DNA of 64,000 nt from Butyrivibrio sp. (GTDB lineage: Bacteria; Bacillota; Clostridia; Lachnospirales; Lachnospiraceae), in assembly GCF_017635265.1 (NCBI RefSeq), contig NZ_JAGBLU010000137.1:62001-126000 (forward strand). Reading direction: 5' to 3'. Position numbers and translations under genes: made by a program. This document shows, piece by piece, positions 38,004 to 46,933 of the stretch (position 1 is its first letter; each line of letters starts with the position of its first letter). Under the pieces are notes generated by a model. It was not told where the DNA came from. It searched no databases and saw only the letters and a program-made list of their open reading frames with translations.

Positions 38004-38042
38004 AAAATTAGCACATCACATTTTGTGATGTGCTAATTTTTT
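38002..38042. terminator. Bidirectional terminator between convergent genes
   Basis: A perfect 19-bp stem (38002-38020 with 38024-38042) around GCACATCACA/TGTGATGTGC with a TTT loop. A-run and T-run flanks make it work in both directions. It overlaps the stop codons of both flanking genes. Confidence 0.92.
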
Positions 38043-41000
38043 ACATTGCTTTTTTTATTGATTCATCGACTTTCTTTTGAGCAGTTGAGAGCATGAGCTT
38101 AATTCTGTTAAGCTGATTTACTTCGGATGCACCGGGATCATAATCAATTGCAACGATATTGCATCCCGGATACAAATGTCTCATCTGTTTAATAACACCT
38201 TTTCCTACAACGTGATTAGGCAAGCATCCAAATGGCTGTGTACATACAATATTTGTTGCACCTTGTTCTATAAGTTCAACCATTTCACCTGTTAAGAACC
38301 AGCCTTCACCGGTCTGATTACCTATATCAACGATTGGTTTAGCATATTCAACAAGCTTGTAGATGCTTGTCGGCGGCTCAAAGTGCACACTTTTTTCAAA
38401 GGCTTTCGTAGCGCCACCACGAAGCTTTTCAATTGCCCAAATTGCCACTCTCATAAGTGCAGCTGTTTTAGCTGATGTACCGAGTTCTTTTGCTTTGTAA
38501 ATCTGATTGTAGAAGCAGTAGAGCATAAAATCAATAAGATCCGGAACAACAGCTTCTGCACCTTCAGCTTCCAATAGATCAACCAGATGGTTATTGGCAG
38601 CCGGAGCAAATTTAACAAGGATTTCTCCAACAACGCCAACTCTTGGCTTTACTTCATCAGTAATTTCGATTTTATCAAAATCCTCAATTATAGCGCGGCA
38701 CATCTTTTGGAACTTAATAAAGCTCATATGCTTTGCGGATACAAAATCAATACATTCTTTTTTCCATTTTTTATGAACAGCTTCAGTAGAACCCTTTACT
38801 TTTTCATAAGGCCTCATTCTGTATACACAACGCATGAAAATATCACCAAATACAGCGCCGTAGGCTGCTCTTTCAAGCATTTCAAAGTTGATATGAAAGC
38901 CCGGATTTGCTTCAAGCTTTGAAAGGTTAAGTGAAACAACAGGAATTTGTTCCATACCGGCCTTTTTCAGAGCTCTGCGGATAAAGCCGACATAGTTTGT
39001 AGCTCTGCAGCCGCCACCGGTCTGCGACATTATCACAGCGGTTCTGTTAAGATCATATTTTCCTGAATGGAGTTCGTCCATAATCTGACCGACAACCCAA
39101 AGAGAAGGATAGCAGGCATCATTGTTTACATACTTAAGTCCCATATCTATAGCATGTCTGTTGTCATTTTGCATTACAACAAAGTTATAACCACAAGCTC
39201 TGAAAGCAGGCTCTAAGATATCAAAATGAATAGGAGACATCTGAGGGCAAAGTATTGTATAGTTCTTTCTCATTTCTTCGGTGAAAAGAACTCTGTTATT
39301 AGCAGTAGAACGGATAGTTCTCTGCTCATTTTTTTGCTTTCTTACACGAATAGCCGCAAGGAGAGAACGAACCCTTATTCTGGCACTTCCAAGGCTGTTT
39401 ACTTCATCAATTTTAAGACAAGTATATATTTTGTCAGATCCGGAAAGGATATCATTGACCTGATCGGTTGTTACAGCGTCAAGTCCACATCCGAATGAGT
39501 TGAGCTGAATAAGGTCGAGGTCGTCACGTGTTCTTACAAAGCTTGCAGCAGCATAAAGTCTTGAGTGATACATCCACTGGTCAGAAACAATTAATGGCCT
39601 GTCCGGTTTTCCAAGGTGTGAAACGCTGTCTTCTGTCAGAACCGCAACGCCATAGGAACAGATCATGTCAGGAATACCGTGGTTAATTTCAGGATCAACG
39701 TGGTATGGTCGGCCTGCAAGGACAATTCCATGCTTTCCGTTTTCTTCCATCCATTTCAGGGTTTCTTCGCCTTTATTTTGGATATCTTTTCTGGCTTTTT
39801 GCATTTCTTCCCAGCCGAGTCTGGAAGCCTCGATTACTTCTTCGGCTGAAATTTCGGAAAATTCTTTGACAAGTGAAGCAGTAGCAGTTTCAAGACTTGT
39901 AAATGCCATGAAAGGATTGCGCAGCTTAACTTCACCGTTTGTGATGGCTTCAACATTATTTTTGATATTTTCCGAATAAGAAGTAACAATAGGGCAGTTG
40001 TAATGGTTGGTAGCTCCTTCAACTTCTTTTCTCTCGTAGAAAAGTCCCGGATAGAAGATGAAATCAACCTTTTGCTTTATCAGCCATTCAACGTGTCCGT
40101 GAGAGAGCTTTGCAGGGTAGCATTCTGACTCACTGGGAATGGATTCAATACCAAGCTCGTAAATCTGATGTGTTGATCTTGGAGAAAGAACAACCCTAAA
40201 GCCAAGCTTTGTAAAGAAAGTGAACCAGAATGGATAATTTTCATAAAAATTCAGGACTCTTGGAATGCCAACAGTTCCTCTAAATGCCTTGTCTGCTTCA
40301 AGGGGCTCATAACCAAAAATTCTCTTGTATTTGTAATCAAAGAGGTTAGGAATATTATCGGCATTCTTAACTTTTCCGATACCTCTTTCACATCTGTTGC
40401 CGGAGATATGAGTTCTGCCACCCGTAAATTTGTTTACAGTAAGACGGCAGTGATTCGTGCATCCCTGGCATGTTGTCATGCTTGTGGAATATTCAAGATT
40501 ATTGATCTGATCAATTCCAAGCATTGTAGTTTTATAATTATCAGTTTCGTAAAAACGTTCTCTTGCAATAAGAGCAGCACCAAAAGCACCCATGATTCCG
40601 GCAATATCAGGACGAATTGCTTCGGCACCCGAAATGATTTCAAATGCTCTTAAAACCGCATCGTTATAGAATGTGCCACCCTGAACAACTATATGATTTC
40701 CCAGATCTTTTGCATCAGAGACCTTGATTACTTTAAACAATGCATTTTTTATAACAGAGTAGGCAAGACCTGAAGAAATATCAGCTACATCAGCGCCTTC
40801 CTTCTGTGCCTGTTTAACCCTTGAATTCATGAAAACAGTACATCTTGTTCCAAGGTCAACAGGGGATTTTGCATAGAGAGCAACCTTTGCAAAGTCCTGA
40901 ACGCTATAACCAAGTGATTTGGCAAAAGTTTCTATAAATGAACCGCAACCTGAAGAGCAGGCTTCGTTTAACTGTACCGAATCAACTGAATTGTTCCTGA

Positions 41001-42294
41001 TATGAATGCATTTCATATCCTGGCCACCAATATCAAGGATACAGTCAACCTTAGGATCAAAGAAAGCAGCTGCATTATAATGGGCAATTGTTTCAACTTC
41101 GCCGTCGTCAAGTAAAAGAGCTGACTTAAGAAGCGCTTCGCCGTATCCTGTTGAACATGAACGGGCAATAGCTACCCCTTGGGGCATAAGCTTATAGATT
41201 TCCTGTATTGAAGAGATTGCTGTCTTTAAAGGACTTCCGTTGTTACTTGAATAAAATGAATAAAGAAGATCACCGTCTTCACTGATAAGGGCGCATTTTG
41301 TAGTAGTTGAACCTGCATCTATACCAAGAAAAGCTTTTCCCTTGTAACCGTCAAGTTTTCTGGTTTTTACTTTATACTTATCCTGACGTGTTCTGAATGC
41401 GACATAGTCATCTTCGTTTTTAAACAATGGATCAAGACGTGATACTTCAGCTTCCATAACTATCTTATGGGAAAGCTTGTCAGTCATTTCGTTCATTGAA
41501 TAAGAAACTTCTTCTTTTGCATTTAAGGCTGAGCCGATGGCAGCAAAAAGATGAGAGTTATCGGTTTCAATGGTATGCTCTTCATCAAGTTTTAAGGTAC
41601 GGATAAATGCAGCTTTAAGCTGATCAAGGAAATGAAGAGGACCTCCTAAAAATGCGACATGTCCTCTTATGGGCTTACCGCATGCAAGACCTGAAATTGT
41701 CTGGTTTACAACTGCCTGAAAAATAGAAGCGGCAAGGTCTTCTTTAGTTGCACCTTCATTGATAAGAGGCTGAATATCGGACTTGGCAAACACACCACAT
41801 CTGGCTGCAATTGTATAAAGAGAGTTGTAGTTTCTGGCATATTCATTAAGACCTGTAGCATCAGTCTGTAATAAGGATGCCATCTGGTCTATAAATGATC
41901 CGGTTCCTCCGGCACATATACCATTCATTCGCTGCTCAACGTTACCATCTTCAAAATATATGATTTTGGCATCTTCACCACCAAGCTCAATCGCAACATC
42001 GGTTTTGGGTGCAAGTTCTTTTAAAGATGTTGAAACGGCTATTACTTCCTGCACAAACGGAACATTCAAATGCTTTGCAAGAGTTAATCCTCCGGAGCCT
42101 GTAATAACAGGATGGATAGTAATATCTCCGCTAACCTTATAAGCTTCCTGCAAAAGATCAGATAATGTTTCCTGAATATTGGCAAAGTGTCTTTTGTAAT
42201 CTGAAAAAATGATATTACGATCACTATCCAAAAGGGCCACTTTAACAGTAGTGGAACCAATATCAATACCTAATGTGTAGTCTTTTGAAATCAT
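38041..42294 (-). CDS. Giant acyl-CoA dehydratase activase-related protein
   Basis: A 1417-residue protein related to 2-hydroxyglutaryl-CoA dehydratase components. Two BadF/HgdC-type ASKHA ATPase modules occur in tandem: GIDIGSTTVKVALLD near residue 9 and GIDAGSTTTKCALIS near 321. Each keeps cysteines expected to bridge a [4Fe-4S] cluster (CAGGTGSFID with ARCGVFAKSD; CSSGCGSFIE with TRCTVFMNSR). A DUF2229-like region follows (about 670-880), then an HgdB-like C-terminal part (about 1000-1400). Such fusions are widespread in Clostridia; the substrate is unknown. GAGGT precedes the ATG on the minus strand. Confidence 0.88.
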   Translation of the reverse strand: MISKDYTLGIDIGSTTVKVALLDSDRNIIFSDYKRHFANIQETLSDLLQEAYKVSGDITIHPVITGSGGLTLAKHLNVPFVQEVIAVSTSLKELAPKTDVAIELGGEDAKIIYFEDGNVEQRMNGICAGGTGSFIDQMASLLQTDATGLNEYARNYNSLYTIAARCGVFAKSDIQPLINEGATKEDLAASIFQAVVNQTISGLACGKPIRGHVAFLGGPLHFLDQLKAAFIRTLKLDEEHTIETDNSHLFAAIGSALNAKEEVSYSMNEMTDKLSHKIVMEAEVSRLDPLFKNEDDYVAFRTRQDKYKVKTRKLDGYKGKAFLGIDAGSTTTKCALISEDGDLLYSFYSSNNGSPLKTAISSIQEIYKLMPQGVAIARSCSTGYGEALLKSALLLDDGEVETIAHYNAAAFFDPKVDCILDIGGQDMKCIHIRNNSVDSVQLNEACSSGCGSFIETFAKSLGYSVQDFAKVALYAKSPVDLGTRCTVFMNSRVKQAQKEGADVADISSGLAYSVIKNALFKVIKVSDAKDLGNHIVVQGGTFYNDAVLRAFEIISGAEAIRPDIAGIMGAFGAALIARERFYETDNYKTTMLGIDQINNLEYSTSMTTCQGCTNHCRLTVNKFTGGRTHISGNRCERGIGKVKNADNIPNLFDYKYKRIFGYEPLEADKAFRGTVGIPRVLNFYENYPFWFTFFTKLGFRVVLSPRSTHQIYELGIESIPSESECYPAKLSHGHVEWLIKQKVDFIFYPGLFYERKEVEGATNHYNCPIVTSYSENIKNNVEAITNGEVKLRNPFMAFTSLETATASLVKEFSEISAEEVIEASRLGWEEMQKARKDIQNKGEETLKWMEENGKHGIVLAGRPYHVDPEINHGIPDMICSYGVAVLTEDSVSHLGKPDRPLIVSDQWMYHSRLYAAASFVRTRDDLDLIQLNSFGCGLDAVTTDQVNDILSGSDKIYTCLKIDEVNSLGSARIRVRSLLAAIRVRKQKNEQRTIRSTANNRVLFTEEMRKNYTILCPQMSPIHFDILEPAFRACGYNFVVMQNDNRHAIDMGLKYVNNDACYPSLWVVGQIMDELHSGKYDLNRTAVIMSQTGGGCRATNYVGFIRRALKKAGMEQIPVVSLNLSKLEANPGFHINFEMLERAAYGAVFGDIFMRCVYRMRPYEKVKGSTEAVHKKWKKECIDFVSAKHMSFIKFQKMCRAIIEDFDKIEITDEVKPRVGVVGEILVKFAPAANNHLVDLLEAEGAEAVVPDLIDFMLYCFYNQIYKAKELGTSAKTAALMRVAIWAIEKLRGGATKAFEKSVHFEPPTSIYKLVEYAKPIVDIGNQTGEGWFLTGEMVELIEQGATNIVCTQPFGCLPNHVVGKGVIKQMRHLYPGCNIVAIDYDPGASEVNQLNRIKLMLSTAQKKVDESIKKAM

Positions 42295-42425: not shown

Positions 42426-42455
42426 TGGACATTCGCATTCCCTGACTTTTATGAT
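42426..42455 (+). promoter_or_regulatory. Promoter of the 42495-46847 unit
   Basis: TGGACA at 42426-42431 and TATGAT at 42450-42455 with an 18-base spacer, 40 bases before the first start codon. Five of six bases match consensus in each box. Confidence 0.5.
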
Positions 42456-42494
42456 ATTATTACTCTGTATGAGTATGTAAGGGAGATTTGTAAC

Positions 42495-44759
42495 ATGAAA
42501 AGTGCAAAGCGTCTTGTACTGATATTATTATCTTTTTTGATCATATTTTGTTATATGACGCTTACAGGCAAAGCATCCGGCGGAGTATCCAAGACTGTCA
42601 GAGTTGGATATTATCAAAATGAGGCATTTCAGGAAGGAGCTTCTGAAAATTCTGTAAAGAGCGGATATGCGTATGAGTATTATCGTAAAATATCCGAATA
42701 TACCGGATGGAACTATGAATATGTATATGGTGATTTCGTGACCGTTTATAATATGCTTCTGAAGGGCGAAGTGGATATGGTTGCCGGGCTTGCATATACC
42801 GAAGAGAGAAGCCGAATTATTTCTTATCCTGAAAGTCCTATGGGGACAGAGCTTTACAGTCTCGTTAAACATGAAGGCGATGAGACAATTACTACAAGTC
42901 CTTCTTCGCTTCAGGGAAAAAGTATTGGTGTCCTCAACAGTGCAATCAAAGAGTCTTTGGAAGAATTTTTGGTTGAAAAAAAAATCAATGCGAATATTGT
43001 TTCATTTAGAGATTATGATGCACTTCTTTCAGCTTTTGACAAAAGAGAAGTTGATACACTTGCCGGCGAAAGTGACGGTATTTATGACAGAAGTCATGCA
43101 GAAACTTTATATTCTTTTGGCGAAAGTGATTATTACATTTGTACCAGTAAGGATAGGTCTGATCTTTTGAAAGAGCTTAATGAGGCACAAAAACAGTTGT
43201 TTCTGGAATACCCTGATTATATAAGTTCGCTCAGAAACAAGTATTATCCGGAAACCCTTGCCAGCAGAGCGTTTACACAATCTGAAAAGAACTGGTTAAA
43301 TACACACGATAGTATTGTGGTCGGATATTTAAATAACTATCTTCCTTATAGTGATACAGACGAAAATGGTAAGGTGACAGGAATTGTAAAAGACCTTTTA
43401 CCTTATGTGTTTAAAGAGCTGGGTTATGACAGCATGACCATAAAGTATGTTCCATACGACAGTTATGATGATATGGTTATGGCAATCGATGAGGGAGATA
43501 TAGAACTTGCTTTTCCTGTGGGAGGAGGACTTTTCTTCTCTGAAGAGGATGGTTTGTTTATTTCAAAGCCTGTTATTTCTTCTCTAACAGATCTTATTTA
43601 TTCAACCGATTACTATGACAATTCTCAGCAGTTATTTGCTGTTAATGAAAAAAATAAGCTTCAGTACTATTACATTATGACGCATTATCCCGATGCAAAG
43701 ATTGAGTTTTATCCCTCAACCGATGCATGTCTTAAAGCTGTATTAAACGGAGAAGCCACATATACTACATTAAATGGATTAAGAACAGCTTCGATGCTTA
43801 AGAGAGCAGATTTTGACAAACTTTCTTTCAGGCAACTTGGCTATGCCGATGATAGATGCTTTGGAATTAAGATTGGCAATGACGGTCTGTTGAAGCTTAT
43901 AGACAGAGGTTTAAGCAGAACAGGCTCCGAATATATAAATAATCTTTCTTCGGTATATTCGGATCGTATGTATACTTATACTTTTAAGGATTTCCTTAAA
44001 GATAATTTTATCGGTGCGTTTATTGTATTTTTAGCTGTGCTTGCTACATTGTGTCTTCTTTTAGCATATAGCGTTTACGTTAACAACAAGAGAATAAAAG
44101 AAAAAGAAAAGTCAAAAAAAGATCTTGAACTTGCAAATAGGGAAAAATTTGTTTTTCTTAATAAGATGACCAATTATATGCGGGATCCTATAAATAATAT
44201 TGTCACTTTGATAAAGTTCTCGGAAAATGCAAAAGATATTCAGTTGATAAAAGAGAACCTGACAAAGATGGACGCACATAGCAAGGATCTCATGACAATA
44301 CTTAACAACATTCTCAATATCAGTAGCTTTGAGAGTGGACAGGTTAAACTCCAAGATCAGCTCAGTCTTTATAATTTCTTTGGCAAAAGAGTACTTGTTG
44401 TTGAAGATACACTTCCCAATCAGACAATTACCGGTAACATTATGAAGAAAGCCGGAATGGAAGTGCAGGTTGCCAATGATGGTCTTGACGCTTTTGAAAA
44501 AGTTAAAGCTGCACCGAGTGGCTATTTTGATGCAATCCTTATTAATGTTGATGAAAAAGATCTTCAGGGATTTCTTTTTATTAAGAGGATAAGGGAACTT
44601 GAAGATGATATCAGATCAGAAGTGCCTGTTATTGCTATTACAGGTGATGATTCTGACAATGAAAAAGAAAAGATTATTAAGTCAGGGCTGAACGGTTATA
44701 TAACAAAGCCTTATGATGTCAATGCGGTTCTTGATAAAATGTCAGGAATAATTTTATAA
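42495..44759 (+). CDS. Tandem Venus-flytrap transmembrane protein with degenerate kinase and receiver domains
   Basis: A 754-residue BvgS-like architecture: signal/anchor helix (about 5-25), two SBP_bac_3-type solute-binding domains (about 34-260 and 270-500), a membrane helix (about 504-530), a DHp-like helical pair (about 545-625) and a C-terminal receiver domain (632-754). The DHp motif reads TNYMRDPIN, with Asn560 where the phospho-His should be. There is no HATPase domain. The receiver aligns well (acidic pair in VVEDT, KPYD Lys kept) but has Asn684 at the phospho-Asp position (DAILINVD). It cannot work as a normal histidine kinase; it may transmit ligand binding by conformation. GGGAG precedes the ATG. 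Confidence 0.88.
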   Translation: MKSAKRLVLILLSFLIIFCYMTLTGKASGGVSKTVRVGYYQNEAFQEGASENSVKSGYAYEYYRKISEYTGWNYEYVYGDFVTVYNMLLKGEVDMVAGLAYTEERSRIISYPESPMGTELYSLVKHEGDETITTSPSSLQGKSIGVLNSAIKESLEEFLVEKKINANIVSFRDYDALLSAFDKREVDTLAGESDGIYDRSHAETLYSFGESDYYICTSKDRSDLLKELNEAQKQLFLEYPDYISSLRNKYYPETLASRAFTQSEKNWLNTHDSIVVGYLNNYLPYSDTDENGKVTGIVKDLLPYVFKELGYDSMTIKYVPYDSYDDMVMAIDEGDIELAFPVGGGLFFSEEDGLFISKPVISSLTDLIYSTDYYDNSQQLFAVNEKNKLQYYYIMTHYPDAKIEFYPSTDACLKAVLNGEATYTTLNGLRTASMLKRADFDKLSFRQLGYADDRCFGIKIGNDGLLKLIDRGLSRTGSEYINNLSSVYSDRMYTYTFKDFLKDNFIGAFIVFLAVLATLCLLLAYSVYVNNKRIKEKEKSKKDLELANREKFVFLNKMTNYMRDPINNIVTLIKFSENAKDIQLIKENLTKMDAHSKDLMTILNNILNISSFESGQVKLQDQLSLYNFFGKRVLVVEDTLPNQTITGNIMKKAGMEVQVANDGLDAFEKVKAAPSGYFDAILINVDEKDLQGFLFIKRIRELEDDIRSEVPVIAITGDDSDNEKEKIIKSGLNGYITKPYDVNAVLDKMSGIIL

Positions 44760-44775
44760 AAACAGAGGATAATAT

Positions 44776-45654
44776 ATGAATGAATTTTTAAACAACATGG
44801 AAAAGAAATTTGGAAAATATGCCATTCCAAATCTTACTCTTTACATCATCGGAATGTATGTACTTGGATATGTTTTGCAGCTTGCACCTGCAAGAGTAAA
44901 TATACTTGGTTTTTTGACTCTTGATCCTTATGCTGTTTTACATGGGCAGATCTGGAGGCTGGTATCCTGGCTCTTAATACCACCAAGCTCATTTAATATT
45001 CTTATTATCATTACCCTGTTCTTTTATTATTTTGTGGGAACAAGCATGGAAAGAACCATGGGAACATTCAGATATAATGTCTTTATTTTCGGCGGCGTTA
45101 TACTAATGATTCTTTCATCTTTTGTAACAATGCTTGTTTATAAGGTGTTCTTTGGAATTGGAGGAGAAGCTCTCGGTGCTGTAATGAGTGCTTTTTCCAT
45201 ATATTTTAGTACTTCCTATATTCAGGAAATGGTTTTCCTTGCTTTTGCAATGTGCTTCCCTGATGTACAGGTACTTCTCATGTTTATAATACCAATTAAA
45301 GTTAAGTACCTTGGATATTTTTATGCTGCAATTCTTGTTTATAATGCGGTGATGGGAATAGCAGGAAGCAATTATTTCGTATTCTTTGCTATTTTGTTCC
45401 AGTTTATCAATCTTTTCTTATTCTATCTGCAGACAGGTAAAATCAGTCATTTGAGGCCAAAAGAGGTTAAGAGGCGAAGAGATTTTCAAAGAAATGCAAA
45501 GATTATGCCTAAAGGAATTACAAGACATAAATGTGCAGTATGCGGAAGAACAGAAGAGGATTCGCCAGATCTTGAATTCAGGTTCTGTTCGAAATGCAAC
45601 GGCAATTATGAATATTGTCAGGATCATCTATTTACACATCAGCATGTTAAATAA
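44776..45654 (+). CDS. Rhomboid-fold membrane protein lacking catalytic Ser, with C-terminal zinc ribbon
   Basis: A 292-residue membrane protein with about six helices. GQIWRLVSW near residue 57 is the rhomboid L1 loop signature, and FVGTSMERTMG fits the following helix. The GxSG active-site motif is replaced: the aligned stretch reads EALGAV, with Leu133 in place of Ser. Intramembrane protease activity is therefore unlikely. The C-terminal ~45 residues carry paired Cys/His (CAVCGRTEED, CSKCNGNYEYC, then His residues), a zinc-ribbon-like module facing the cytosol. The gene starts 16 bases after the pseudo-kinase gene and ends nine bases before the sigma-like gene. Confidence 0.83.
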   Translation: MNEFLNNMEKKFGKYAIPNLTLYIIGMYVLGYVLQLAPARVNILGFLTLDPYAVLHGQIWRLVSWLLIPPSSFNILIIITLFFYYFVGTSMERTMGTFRYNVFIFGGVILMILSSFVTMLVYKVFFGIGGEALGAVMSAFSIYFSTSYIQEMVFLAFAMCFPDVQVLLMFIIPIKVKYLGYFYAAILVYNAVMGIAGSNYFVFFAILFQFINLFLFYLQTGKISHLRPKEVKRRRDFQRNAKIMPKGITRHKCAVCGRTEEDSPDLEFRFCSKCNGNYEYCQDHLFTHQHVK

Positions 45655-45663
45655 AGGAGCATC

Positions 45664-46422
45664 ATGGGAAATTTAGACAACAAAGAAAAAGAATTTGCAA
45701 CAATTCTAAAAAATATAACAAGACAAGCACGCGAAAACAGAAATGTTATAACTTCTGACGAAGTCAAAAATGCTTTTTCAGAACTTAAACTTGATGACAA
45801 ACAATTTGAGATGGTTTTTGAATATTTAAAAAACCATAAAATCGGTGTTGACTCAGAAGCTGTTTTTGCAGATGAAGATCTCTCCGATGAAGAAAAAAAC
45901 TATTTGGATGACTATATTGAAAGTTTAAAAGCTCTACCTGTATATACTGATGGCGAAAAAGAGGCTATAACAATAGCTGCGTTAGCCGGTGAAAAGGATG
46001 CGCAGGAAAAGCTTATTACCATGTATCTACCATTGGTTGTTGATGTTGCGAGAATGTATTCTGAACAGGGAGTTTACCTGGAGGACCTTGTGGGAGAGGG
46101 GAATGTTGCTCTTACAAAGGGGGTGACAATGCTTGAAGCGGTTGGTGAACCTTCTGAAGTAGAGAGCTTTCTCTATAAACTTATGCTTGATGCAATGGAG
46201 AACATTATTCAGGAGAACTTATCAGAAGATGCCGGTAGTCAGAAAGTTTTAAAGCTTGTTCAGGAAGTTGCGGATAAAGCAAGTGAGCTTGCTGAAGACC
46301 TCAGAAGGAAAGTTACCGTAAAAGAACTTATGGATGAGACGGGATGGGACGAAGATAAGATCAGAAGTGCTATTAAATTTAGCGGTGATAATATTGAAGA
46401 TTTAGATAGTGGAGAGAAGTGA
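45664..46422 (+). CDS. Sigma70-like protein with incomplete region 2 and no region 4
   Basis: A 252-residue acidic protein. Residues about 5-60 resemble sigma70 region 1.1, and about 95-150 resemble regions 1.2-2.2 (LPLVVDVARMYSEQGVYLED followed by LVGEGNVALTKGV), the part that binds the RNA polymerase clamp. The next segment, where FSTYATWWIRQA-type -10 recognition residues belong, reads VESFLYKLMLDAMENII. A region-3-like helix-turn-helix follows (VTVKELMDETGWDEDKI), and there is no region 4. It might bind core polymerase without recognising promoters. AAAGGAGC sets the start. The stop overlaps the next gene's GTG. Confidence 0.75.
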   Translation: MGNLDNKEKEFATILKNITRQARENRNVITSDEVKNAFSELKLDDKQFEMVFEYLKNHKIGVDSEAVFADEDLSDEEKNYLDDYIESLKALPVYTDGEKEAITIAALAGEKDAQEKLITMYLPLVVDVARMYSEQGVYLEDLVGEGNVALTKGVTMLEAVGEPSEVESFLYKLMLDAMENIIQENLSEDAGSQKVLKLVQEVADKASELAEDLRRKVTVKELMDETGWDEDKIRSAIKFSGDNIEDLDSGEK

Positions 46423-46847
46423 TTCATAACATGCAGAATATTGTAAACGAAGATGATTTTAAATATTACATGCAGGATATTGAAAGATATTATTTTGGAG
46501 CTCGTTATAATTATAATGAGCTCTTAAATAATGAAATGGTTCCATTCAAATTCAAGACCGTAATTACCAAGTATATAAAAGATGATGTAGATCTTGATAC
46601 ATCTTTAGAAAGTCATTTGTATTATATAAACAGAGACGGATTTGATTATAAGGTGTACAGACAGCTTCACTTAAGAGTAAGAACATCACAGTACAAAGAT
46701 CCCTTAAAACATGAAAAGGGGTTTAAAGAAAAGGTTTATACCATAGAGCAGCTGGCAAAGCTAAGTACCGTTGAAAAAGAAGAGAGGGGAATAATAATAA
46801 GAGAGCTTATTATTTCCAAACTTGCGCTTTTTGGTTTTTCTGTTTAA
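46419..46847 (+). CDS. Unknown protein at the end of the sigma-like unit
   Basis: Not recognised. A 142-residue soluble protein, rich in Tyr, Lys and aromatic residues in its first half (DIERYYFGARYNYNEL), with a predicted helical C-terminus. It contains no cysteine and no membrane segment. The GTG at 46419 overlaps the upstream stop (GTGA) and lies close behind GGAG; the ATG at 46431 would give 138 residues. It is last in the four-gene unit, followed by a terminator 49 bases after the stop. Close coupling to the sigma-like gene suggests a partner protein; that is inference. Confidence 0.68.
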   Translation: MIHNMQNIVNEDDFKYYMQDIERYYFGARYNYNELLNNEMVPFKFKTVITKYIKDDVDLDTSLESHLYYINRDGFDYKVYRQLHLRVRTSQYKDPLKHEKGFKEKVYTIEQLAKLSTVEKEERGIIIRELIISKLALFGFSV

Positions 46848-46895
46848 CGGAAAGTGAGAATAGTACAGCTTTTAATAATATTTTTAGACAAATAA

Positions 46896-46923
46896 AAAAA
46901 CTACCTGCTACCAGGTAGTTTTT
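46896..46923. terminator. Bidirectional terminator between the sigma-like unit and rpmB
   Basis: AAAAACTACCTG (46896-46907) pairs with CAGGTAGTTTTT (46912-46923) around a 4-base loop, with A/T tracts on both sides. It serves the + strand unit and the convergent minus-strand rpmB. Confidence 0.88.
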
Positions 46924-46933
46924 ATTATTAACA

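Follow-up and report, generated by a model that had tools for sequence, protein, structure and literature searches.

In Bacillus subtilis, SigO and RsoA together form a sigma factor made of two proteins. A sigma-like protein acting without promoter binding is PhyR of the alphaproteobacterial stress response (PMC4598750, in the part of the paper available), and the B. subtilis rhomboid YqgP, which has a cytosolic metal-binding domain, serves FtsH as a protease-independent adaptor, as stated in the accessible part of PMC7231995. Hybrid kinases of the EvgS type sense through SBP_bac_3 domains. Here we describe a locus of Butyrivibrio sp. (Lachnospiraceae) with likenesses to all of these. It lies in a window of 64,000 nucleotides (contig NZ_JAGBLU010000137.1, positions 62,001 to 126,000, forward strand) and comprises four genes, here called VFT, RHB, SIG and UNK:

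42495-44759, plus strand: VFT, a tandem Venus-flytrap receptor whose cytoplasmic part is kinase-dead (open reading frame of 754 amino acids; Pfam and alignment)
44776-45654, plus strand: RHB, a rhomboid-like membrane protein without GxSG (open reading frame of 292 amino acids; profile searches)
45664-46422, plus strand: SIG, derived from a primary sigma factor, homologous to it over regions 1.1 to 3 and lacking a clear region 4 (open reading frame of 252 amino acids)
46431-46847, plus strand: UNK (138 amino acids from ATG 46431, or 142 amino acids from GTG 46419)

The four open reading frames of the initial annotation were reproduced, together with the gaps of 16 bases between VFT and RHB and 9 bases between RHB and SIG. 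The 4-base overlap described between SIG and UNK is doubtful: homologues of UNK begin at the position of ATG 46431, which leaves a gap of 8 bases.

SIG, a truncated relative of the primary sigma factor

The SIG profile matched SigA over regions 1.1 to 3 with an E value of 8.7e-30, and comparison of SIG with SigA by hhalign gave a probability of 100% (E 3.6e-42). Searched singly, the window protein stays just under the Pfam cut-offs for region 1.1 (22.2 of 22.5), region 2 (21.8 of 24) and region 3 (14.1 of 25.3). The SIG proteins form a branch within a larger family that descends from the primary sigma factor and whose members mostly have 240-330 amino acids. Judged by open-frame length, a short member of this family is present in at least 91 of the 250 Lachnospiraceae genomes that were scanned. 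The count was made by hand from short open frames, with only part of the counted genes read; the long frames of G097, G110 and G007 were read and found to be truncated, and G029, at a contig end, was excluded. In a scan of 291 genomes of the class, the frames among the matches listed outside Lachnospiraceae had the length of SigA, at 352 amino acids or longer. The window genome yielded, at the search threshold, SIG and one SigA-like gene. In a quick tree of the family, 69 truncated members were split from 23 SigA sequences by one fully supported branch. The distribution of the RHB-linked SIG proteins on this tree needs two changes, which could be a gain followed by a loss.

The 69 truncated members (19 adjacent to RHB, 50 not) were aligned with the 23 SigA sequences of the family and with RpoD of E. 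coli; this alignment (A5) leaves out L174, L196 and L217. Mean identity among the truncated members is 25%, with three columns invariant and nine more conserved at 90% or above. The sole invariant columns (69/69) are D141, E145 and N147 of SIG, which correspond to D403, E407 and N409 of E. coli sigma70. According to the part of PMC8321222 that was available, sigma70 contacts the beta' coiled coil at positions 403, 406, 407 and 409. Other sites were kept to different extents: L384 and L404 in 66 members each, V387 in 60 and M413 in 15. In the window protein the two segments of interest are:

46084-46104, plus strand: D141-N147 (DLVGEGN), the clamp-contact motif of region 2.2, with Gly at the Q406 site (alignment)
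46132-46254, plus strand: the segment aligned to sigma70 419-458 (regions 2.3 to 3.0), with promoter residues lost and a net charge of -6

Residues for promoter contact are mostly lost from the family. W433 and W434, which serve promoter melting, and Y425 are found in none of the 69 proteins, K426, T440 and R441 in one each and T429 in two. Compared with the SigA consensus, mean identity is 0.14 at positions 419-458, as against 0.39 at the other sites of regions 2.1-2.2, and the net charge of the 419-458 segment is -4.9 in the truncated members versus +3.5 in SigA. Past E. coli position 540 the median number of aligned residues is 0. A SigA region-4 profile scored at most 6.8 bits against the truncated members, mostly over region-3 helices; a stretch of L189 (272-318) is a possible remnant of region 4. 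These results bear out, for the window protein, the earlier description of a sigma-like protein without regions 2.3/2.4 and 4, and they extend it to the family as a whole, so that the losses are not a matter of local decay.

On these sequence features we tentatively favour the following mechanism. SIG would use the surface of regions 2.1-2.2 to dock onto the beta' clamp helices of RNA polymerase. Once docked it could neither recognise nor melt promoters, and it would most likely act on transcription as a competitor of SigA for core polymerase. Because of the gene order, and because UNK is almost always paired with SIG, RHB and UNK are proposed as its probable controllers: they might keep SIG at the membrane until it is needed, for instance, or present it to a protease.

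Two features of sigma proteins in this data set may be mentioned separately. The full-length SigA open reading frame of the window genome (L219, 4902-6413) has 503 amino acids versus 367-383 in the 22 other SigA of the family. In five of the 69 truncated members (L162, L164, L168, L171 and L185), and in none of the 23 SigA, at least three His are present in the last 25 residues; the truncated proteins L174 and L217 also end His-rich. Such tails suggest metal binding by some truncated sigma proteins.

RHB, UNK and their association with SIG

The loci around RHB were studied in the best 80 of at least 555, a sample biased toward close relatives, and among these the nearest named relatives of the window locus were from Butyrivibrio. 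SIG was present in 53 of the 80 loci and UNK in 47. In the scan of 250 genomes, RHB adjoins SIG in 39/39 cases (38 genomes whose SIG scores at least 200 bits on profile A2, plus G233, where SIG is partial), and SIG adjoins UNK in 31 of the 32 genomes that have UNK. Six genomes of the class scan contain UNK, all of them Lachnospiraceae. The gaps in the RHB-SIG-UNK series are mostly shorter than 100 bases; among the exceptions are L080, where RHB and SIG are 2.8 kb apart and SIG and UNK 53 bases, and L033, where 372 bases separate SIG from UNK. Thus the proposal that four genes stay together across Lachnospiraceae holds for RHB, SIG and UNK, which are adjacent family-wide, and fails for VFT, which adjoins RHB in 12 of the 80 loci, all from Butyrivibrio (VFT matches below 250 bits were not counted). 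The four genes were accordingly rejected as one conserved system, the conserved unit being RHB, SIG and UNK.

For UNK, neither Pfam (39 members searched; the best, at 0.0059, was to an unrelated eukaryotic model) nor NCBIfam (window member only) nor the solved structures (best 0.99) yielded a usable match, and no anti-sigma family was matched in those family searches. The near-obligate occurrence of UNK next to SIG would be understandable if the two proteins jointly made an active sigma factor in which UNK was the promoter-binding part. UNK as the missing region 4 of SigA was, however, rejected (hhalign probability 0.05%), a split sigma would depend on region 2.3/2.4 residues, which SIG has lost, and many family members have no UNK; this makes an active two-part sigma very improbable.

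The same pairing in 31 of 32 genomes also fits a model in which SIG is a decoy, binding an anti-sigma factor and thereby freeing SigA or another sigma, as in the PhyR/NepR system; RHB or UNK would then be the anti-sigma factor or would control it. Anti-sigma factors can cover the RNA polymerase-binding face of region 2, so that the conserved surface would be the same as for docking, and in PhyR a sigma mimic is known (both points from the available part of PMC4598750). Nevertheless, members without RHB keep the clamp motif where no UNK is adjacent, and the searches described above gave UNK no likeness to an anti-sigma family. PhyR, moreover, resembles the extracytoplasmic function (ECF) sigma factors and combines regions 2 and 4 with a receiver, whereas SIG, which comes from a primary sigma, lacks both region 4 and a receiver. 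Taking these points together, we regard a decoy role as unlikely.

RHB was found in 237 of the 250 Lachnospiraceae genomes at E <= 0.001, mostly without SIG. Its likeness to rhomboids is weak: the Pfam Rhomboid model was matched by six of 56 members (best 0.004), and the matches to GlpG had values of 0.0013 (model) and 0.041 (structure). GxSG occurs in two of 80 RHB proteins, at a site that is not conserved; S145 is Ser in 46 and H56 is His in 38 of 56 members, neither of them within GxSG. The absence of the rhomboid serine motif (GxSG) from the window protein, as originally annotated, was confirmed and is a property of the family. By the motifs of its sequence (GxSG serine, membrane histidine), RHB does not qualify as a rhomboid protease. 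Invariant residues are found in the tail of the protein:

45526-45645, plus strand: zinc-ribbon-like tail of RHB; 5 Cys and 4 His are shared by 56/56 members (alignment)

The presence of basic residues after the last hydrophobic segment suggests that this tail, which comprises the last ~40 residues, is cytosolic. The idea that RHB might be a derlin, suggested by a motif likeness, found no support, as no derlin was among the Pfam matches of the 56 members or among the PDB matches to E 10.

The near universality of RHB, mostly without SIG, is also what might be expected if RHB, SIG and UNK had a task in the envelope or in proteostasis that does not involve polymerase, with the sigma fold reused as a scaffold. 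Truncated sigma genes without RHB occur in varied places, and in nine of 53 such loci the gene just upstream codes for an envelope or membrane protease, as an envelope role would predict. These protease neighbours carry little weight, belonging mostly to one S41-linked branch of the quick tree, and the sole residues invariant across the family are the clamp contacts. An envelope or proteostasis function of this kind appears rather improbable. The upstream protease genes were of the S41 peptidase type in L162, L163, L165, L167, L173, L185 and L213, of the M50 (RseP-like) type in L172 and trypsin-like in L171.

The loss of motifs, together with the stepwise loss of the kinase part among receptor copies, could be taken to mean that the genes are decaying remnants. 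Compared with the relatives L009 and L010, the ratio of nonsynonymous to synonymous substitution rates (dN/dS) was 0.037-0.055 for RHB, SIG and UNK; these are rough values, with dS of 1.6 to 3.8, near or past saturation, or not computable. The reading frames are open family-wide, and the RHB tail and the SIG motif are invariant. Decay was therefore rejected as a complete explanation for RHB, SIG and UNK on the grounds of selection and conservation, and that the locus consists of remnants is scarcely credible.

Several observations weigh against docking of SIG on polymerase under the control of RHB and UNK. At the Q406 site, where 47 of the 69 aligned members have Gln and 18 have Gly, Gly is present in 51 of 53 RHB-linked SIG proteins and Gln in 46 of 51 others. 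L402, presumably part of the core-binding set of sigma70, is kept in 0 of 69. A minority of the promoter residues survive (Y430 and E458 in 18 members each, R451 in 12, F427 in 10, Q437 in nine and H455 in six), a weak Pfam region-4 match was obtained with five of 69 (best 9.3e-6), and the sigma finger region is reduced and not cleanly absent, with a median of 10 residues aligned across E. coli positions 503-530. The charge is shifted at positions 380-418 as well (-3.0 versus +2.0 in SigA) and at 459-500 (-4.3 versus -0.8); the whole protein being acidic, acidity is no clear sign of exclusion from DNA. The invariant D141, E145 and N147 may in part serve folding, because sigma70 mutants at 403, 406, 407 and 409 show altered folding and binding that is only weakened, as far as described in the available part of PMC8321222. 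Among the neighbourhoods, six of the 53 RHB-linked SIG genes lack UNK, and in G128 (L180, 5122-7399) the order is RHB-ftsY-UNK, with ftsY at the place of SIG; this is the sole UNK of the 32 without an adjacent SIG. Elsewhere, family members occur without RHB and UNK, which makes these partners dispensable for the family as such.

The Q406 site also provides a lead, though no more than that. Among the RHB-linked SIG proteins, UNK accompanies 47 of the 51 with Gly and neither of the two with Gln (0/2). UNK may make up for a changed clamp contact at this site, or take advantage of it; the association perhaps reflects a single evolutionary event.

The receptor VFT and the flanks of the locus

Pfam recognised in VFT two SBP_bac_3 stretches (E 1.4e-18) and a receiver (2.6e-17), both above cut-off, and a HisKA match beneath it (0.05); HATPase_c was not matched in the window protein. 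The two phospho-acceptor positions carry Asn:

44172-44174, plus strand: codon of Asn560, at the HisKA phospho-acceptor position (alignment)
44544-44546, plus strand: codon of Asn684, at the receiver phospho-acceptor position (alignment)

The acidic pair (ED), the Thr and the Lys of the receiver are retained in the sequence. With neither phospho-acceptor His nor HATPase_c match nor receiver Asp, the window VFT does not qualify as a hybrid histidine kinase, in agreement with the dead kinase and receiver motifs reported initially.

How general these losses are was judged from 25 copies of VFT at this locus (the window, 12 named records and 12 from a scan of the genus), some of which are near-duplicates and none independent. 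The kinase His is lost in 24 of the 25 and ATPase motifs are present in five; the receiver acceptor is Asp in 14 and Asn in 10, and one copy has no receiver, so that a dead receiver is not a general trait of the locus relatives. L012, at the same locus, encodes an intact hybrid kinase, with HisKA, HATPase_c and receiver all above the Pfam cut-offs. VFT was matched at E <= 1e-60 in 27 of 61 genomes of the genus. Among 12 copies elsewhere in the genus, a set that excludes relatives of ~30% identity (L265-L268, L271 and unfetched ones), the His is kept in eight, while two stop short of the kinase and two carry a different output. None of these 12 had RHB as a neighbour in the fetched stretches, where the contigs of L260, L261, L262 and L269 end at or soon after the gene. 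In L263 and L264 the sensor part of VFT is fused to a different output part, whose motif we take to resemble HD-GYP.

The outer part of VFT has a dN/dS of 0.041-0.055 against L009 and L010; for the cytoplasmic part, dS was not computable. At the RHB locus, then, the ligand-binding part of VFT is conserved and the kinase part is lost or eroding, and VFT is a Butyrivibrio add-on to RHB-SIG-UNK. The initial annotation had made its idea of a joint system depend on related copies having lost their motifs too. This is the case for RHB and SIG and not for VFT, as the intact L012 and the eight His-bearing copies elsewhere show. That three disabled modules lie in one putative transcript is true of the window genome, but the modules were lost at different depths.

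The link of kinase loss to this locus (24 of 25 copies, not independent ones) is the outcome expected of a non-enzymatic receptor, and the cytoplasmic part may also be simply decaying. Gene position and kinase loss are the grounds on which VFT may be given a role: in some Butyrivibrio the added receptor, having lost kinase chemistry, may signal through RHB. We consider it doubtful, though worth stating, that widespread Lachnospiraceae regulators derived from the housekeeping sigma displace SigA, one branch being wired to the membrane through UNK and RHB, the latter as a rhomboid-like pseudoprotease, and, in some Butyrivibrio, to a kinase-dead receptor. If true, an extracellular signal would reach RNA polymerase without phosphorylation and without a DNA-binding protein.

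The flanks of the four genes contain two candidate signals:

42432-42460, plus strand: candidate promoter TTCGCA-17-TATTAT, the second hexamer being preceded by TG (consensus scan; position kept in L009 and L010)
46891-46929, no strand assigned: terminator-like hairpin between the convergent UNK and rpmB (folding energy)

The promoter originally placed at 42426 (TGGACA) is not conserved, and L009 and L010 keep the 42432-42460 element instead. In the window as a whole, the consensus scan found 20 promoter-like sites where 21.6 were expected, which is no excess over chance. The hairpin is strong (-15.8 kcal/mol, z -5.8), but rpmB, which lies downstream of UNK on the opposite strand, may share it. 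Upstream, also on the opposite strand, a gene for a protein of 1417 amino acids (38041-42294), presumably of the BadF/2-hydroxyacyl-CoA dehydratase activator type, is a divergent neighbour of RHB in many of the fetched Lachnospiraceae loci.

Comparison with known systems

With the exception of UNK, the parts of the locus come from known superfamilies. PhyR compares with SIG in being a sigma-like protein that acts without promoter binding, which for SIG is proposed; in PhyR, ECF-like regions 2 and 4 are joined to a receiver (PMC4598750, available part), whereas SIG derives from a primary sigma. No receiver domain was found in SIG by Pfam search, and SIG is not a PhyR-type fusion. A search of open-licence papers yielded no description of a SIG-like protein. 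RHB shares with YqgP the rhomboid-like membrane part, and the adaptor role of YqgP, as given in the accessible text of PMC7231995, is the nearest precedent found for RHB; RHB differs from YqgP and the derlins by the absence of GxSG and by its C-terminal Cys/His tail. If the proposed control of SIG is real, it would offer a first functional lead for a rhomboid-like protein of 237 of 250 Lachnospiraceae genomes. With hybrid kinases of the EvgS type, VFT has in common two flytraps, one membrane anchor, a HisKA-like helix and a receiver; in contrast to them, the window VFT has no phospho-acceptor His and no HATPase_c, and its receiver Asp is replaced by Asn.

SigO and RsoA are likewise encoded by two small adjacent genes, one of them region 2-like, but UNK has no region 4 likeness and SIG lacks promoter-contact residues of its own. 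SIG is homologous to SigA/RpoD over regions 1.1 to 3 and has the clamp contacts D403, E407 and N409 in common with it; it differs in having no W433/W434, few of the other -10 residues and no clear region 4, in being acidic and in its length of ~250 versus ~370 amino acids. Judged by sequence, SIG thus qualifies neither as a sigma factor nor as a PhyR. To our knowledge, the housekeeping holoenzyme is restrained by anti-sigma proteins, a small RNA, nucleotides or phage proteins. If the proposed mechanism is true, a sigma factor reduced to its polymerase-docking half would represent another way of doing so. Judged by open-frame length, at least 91 of the 250 genomes scanned, all from a family prominent in gut and rumen, would have it.

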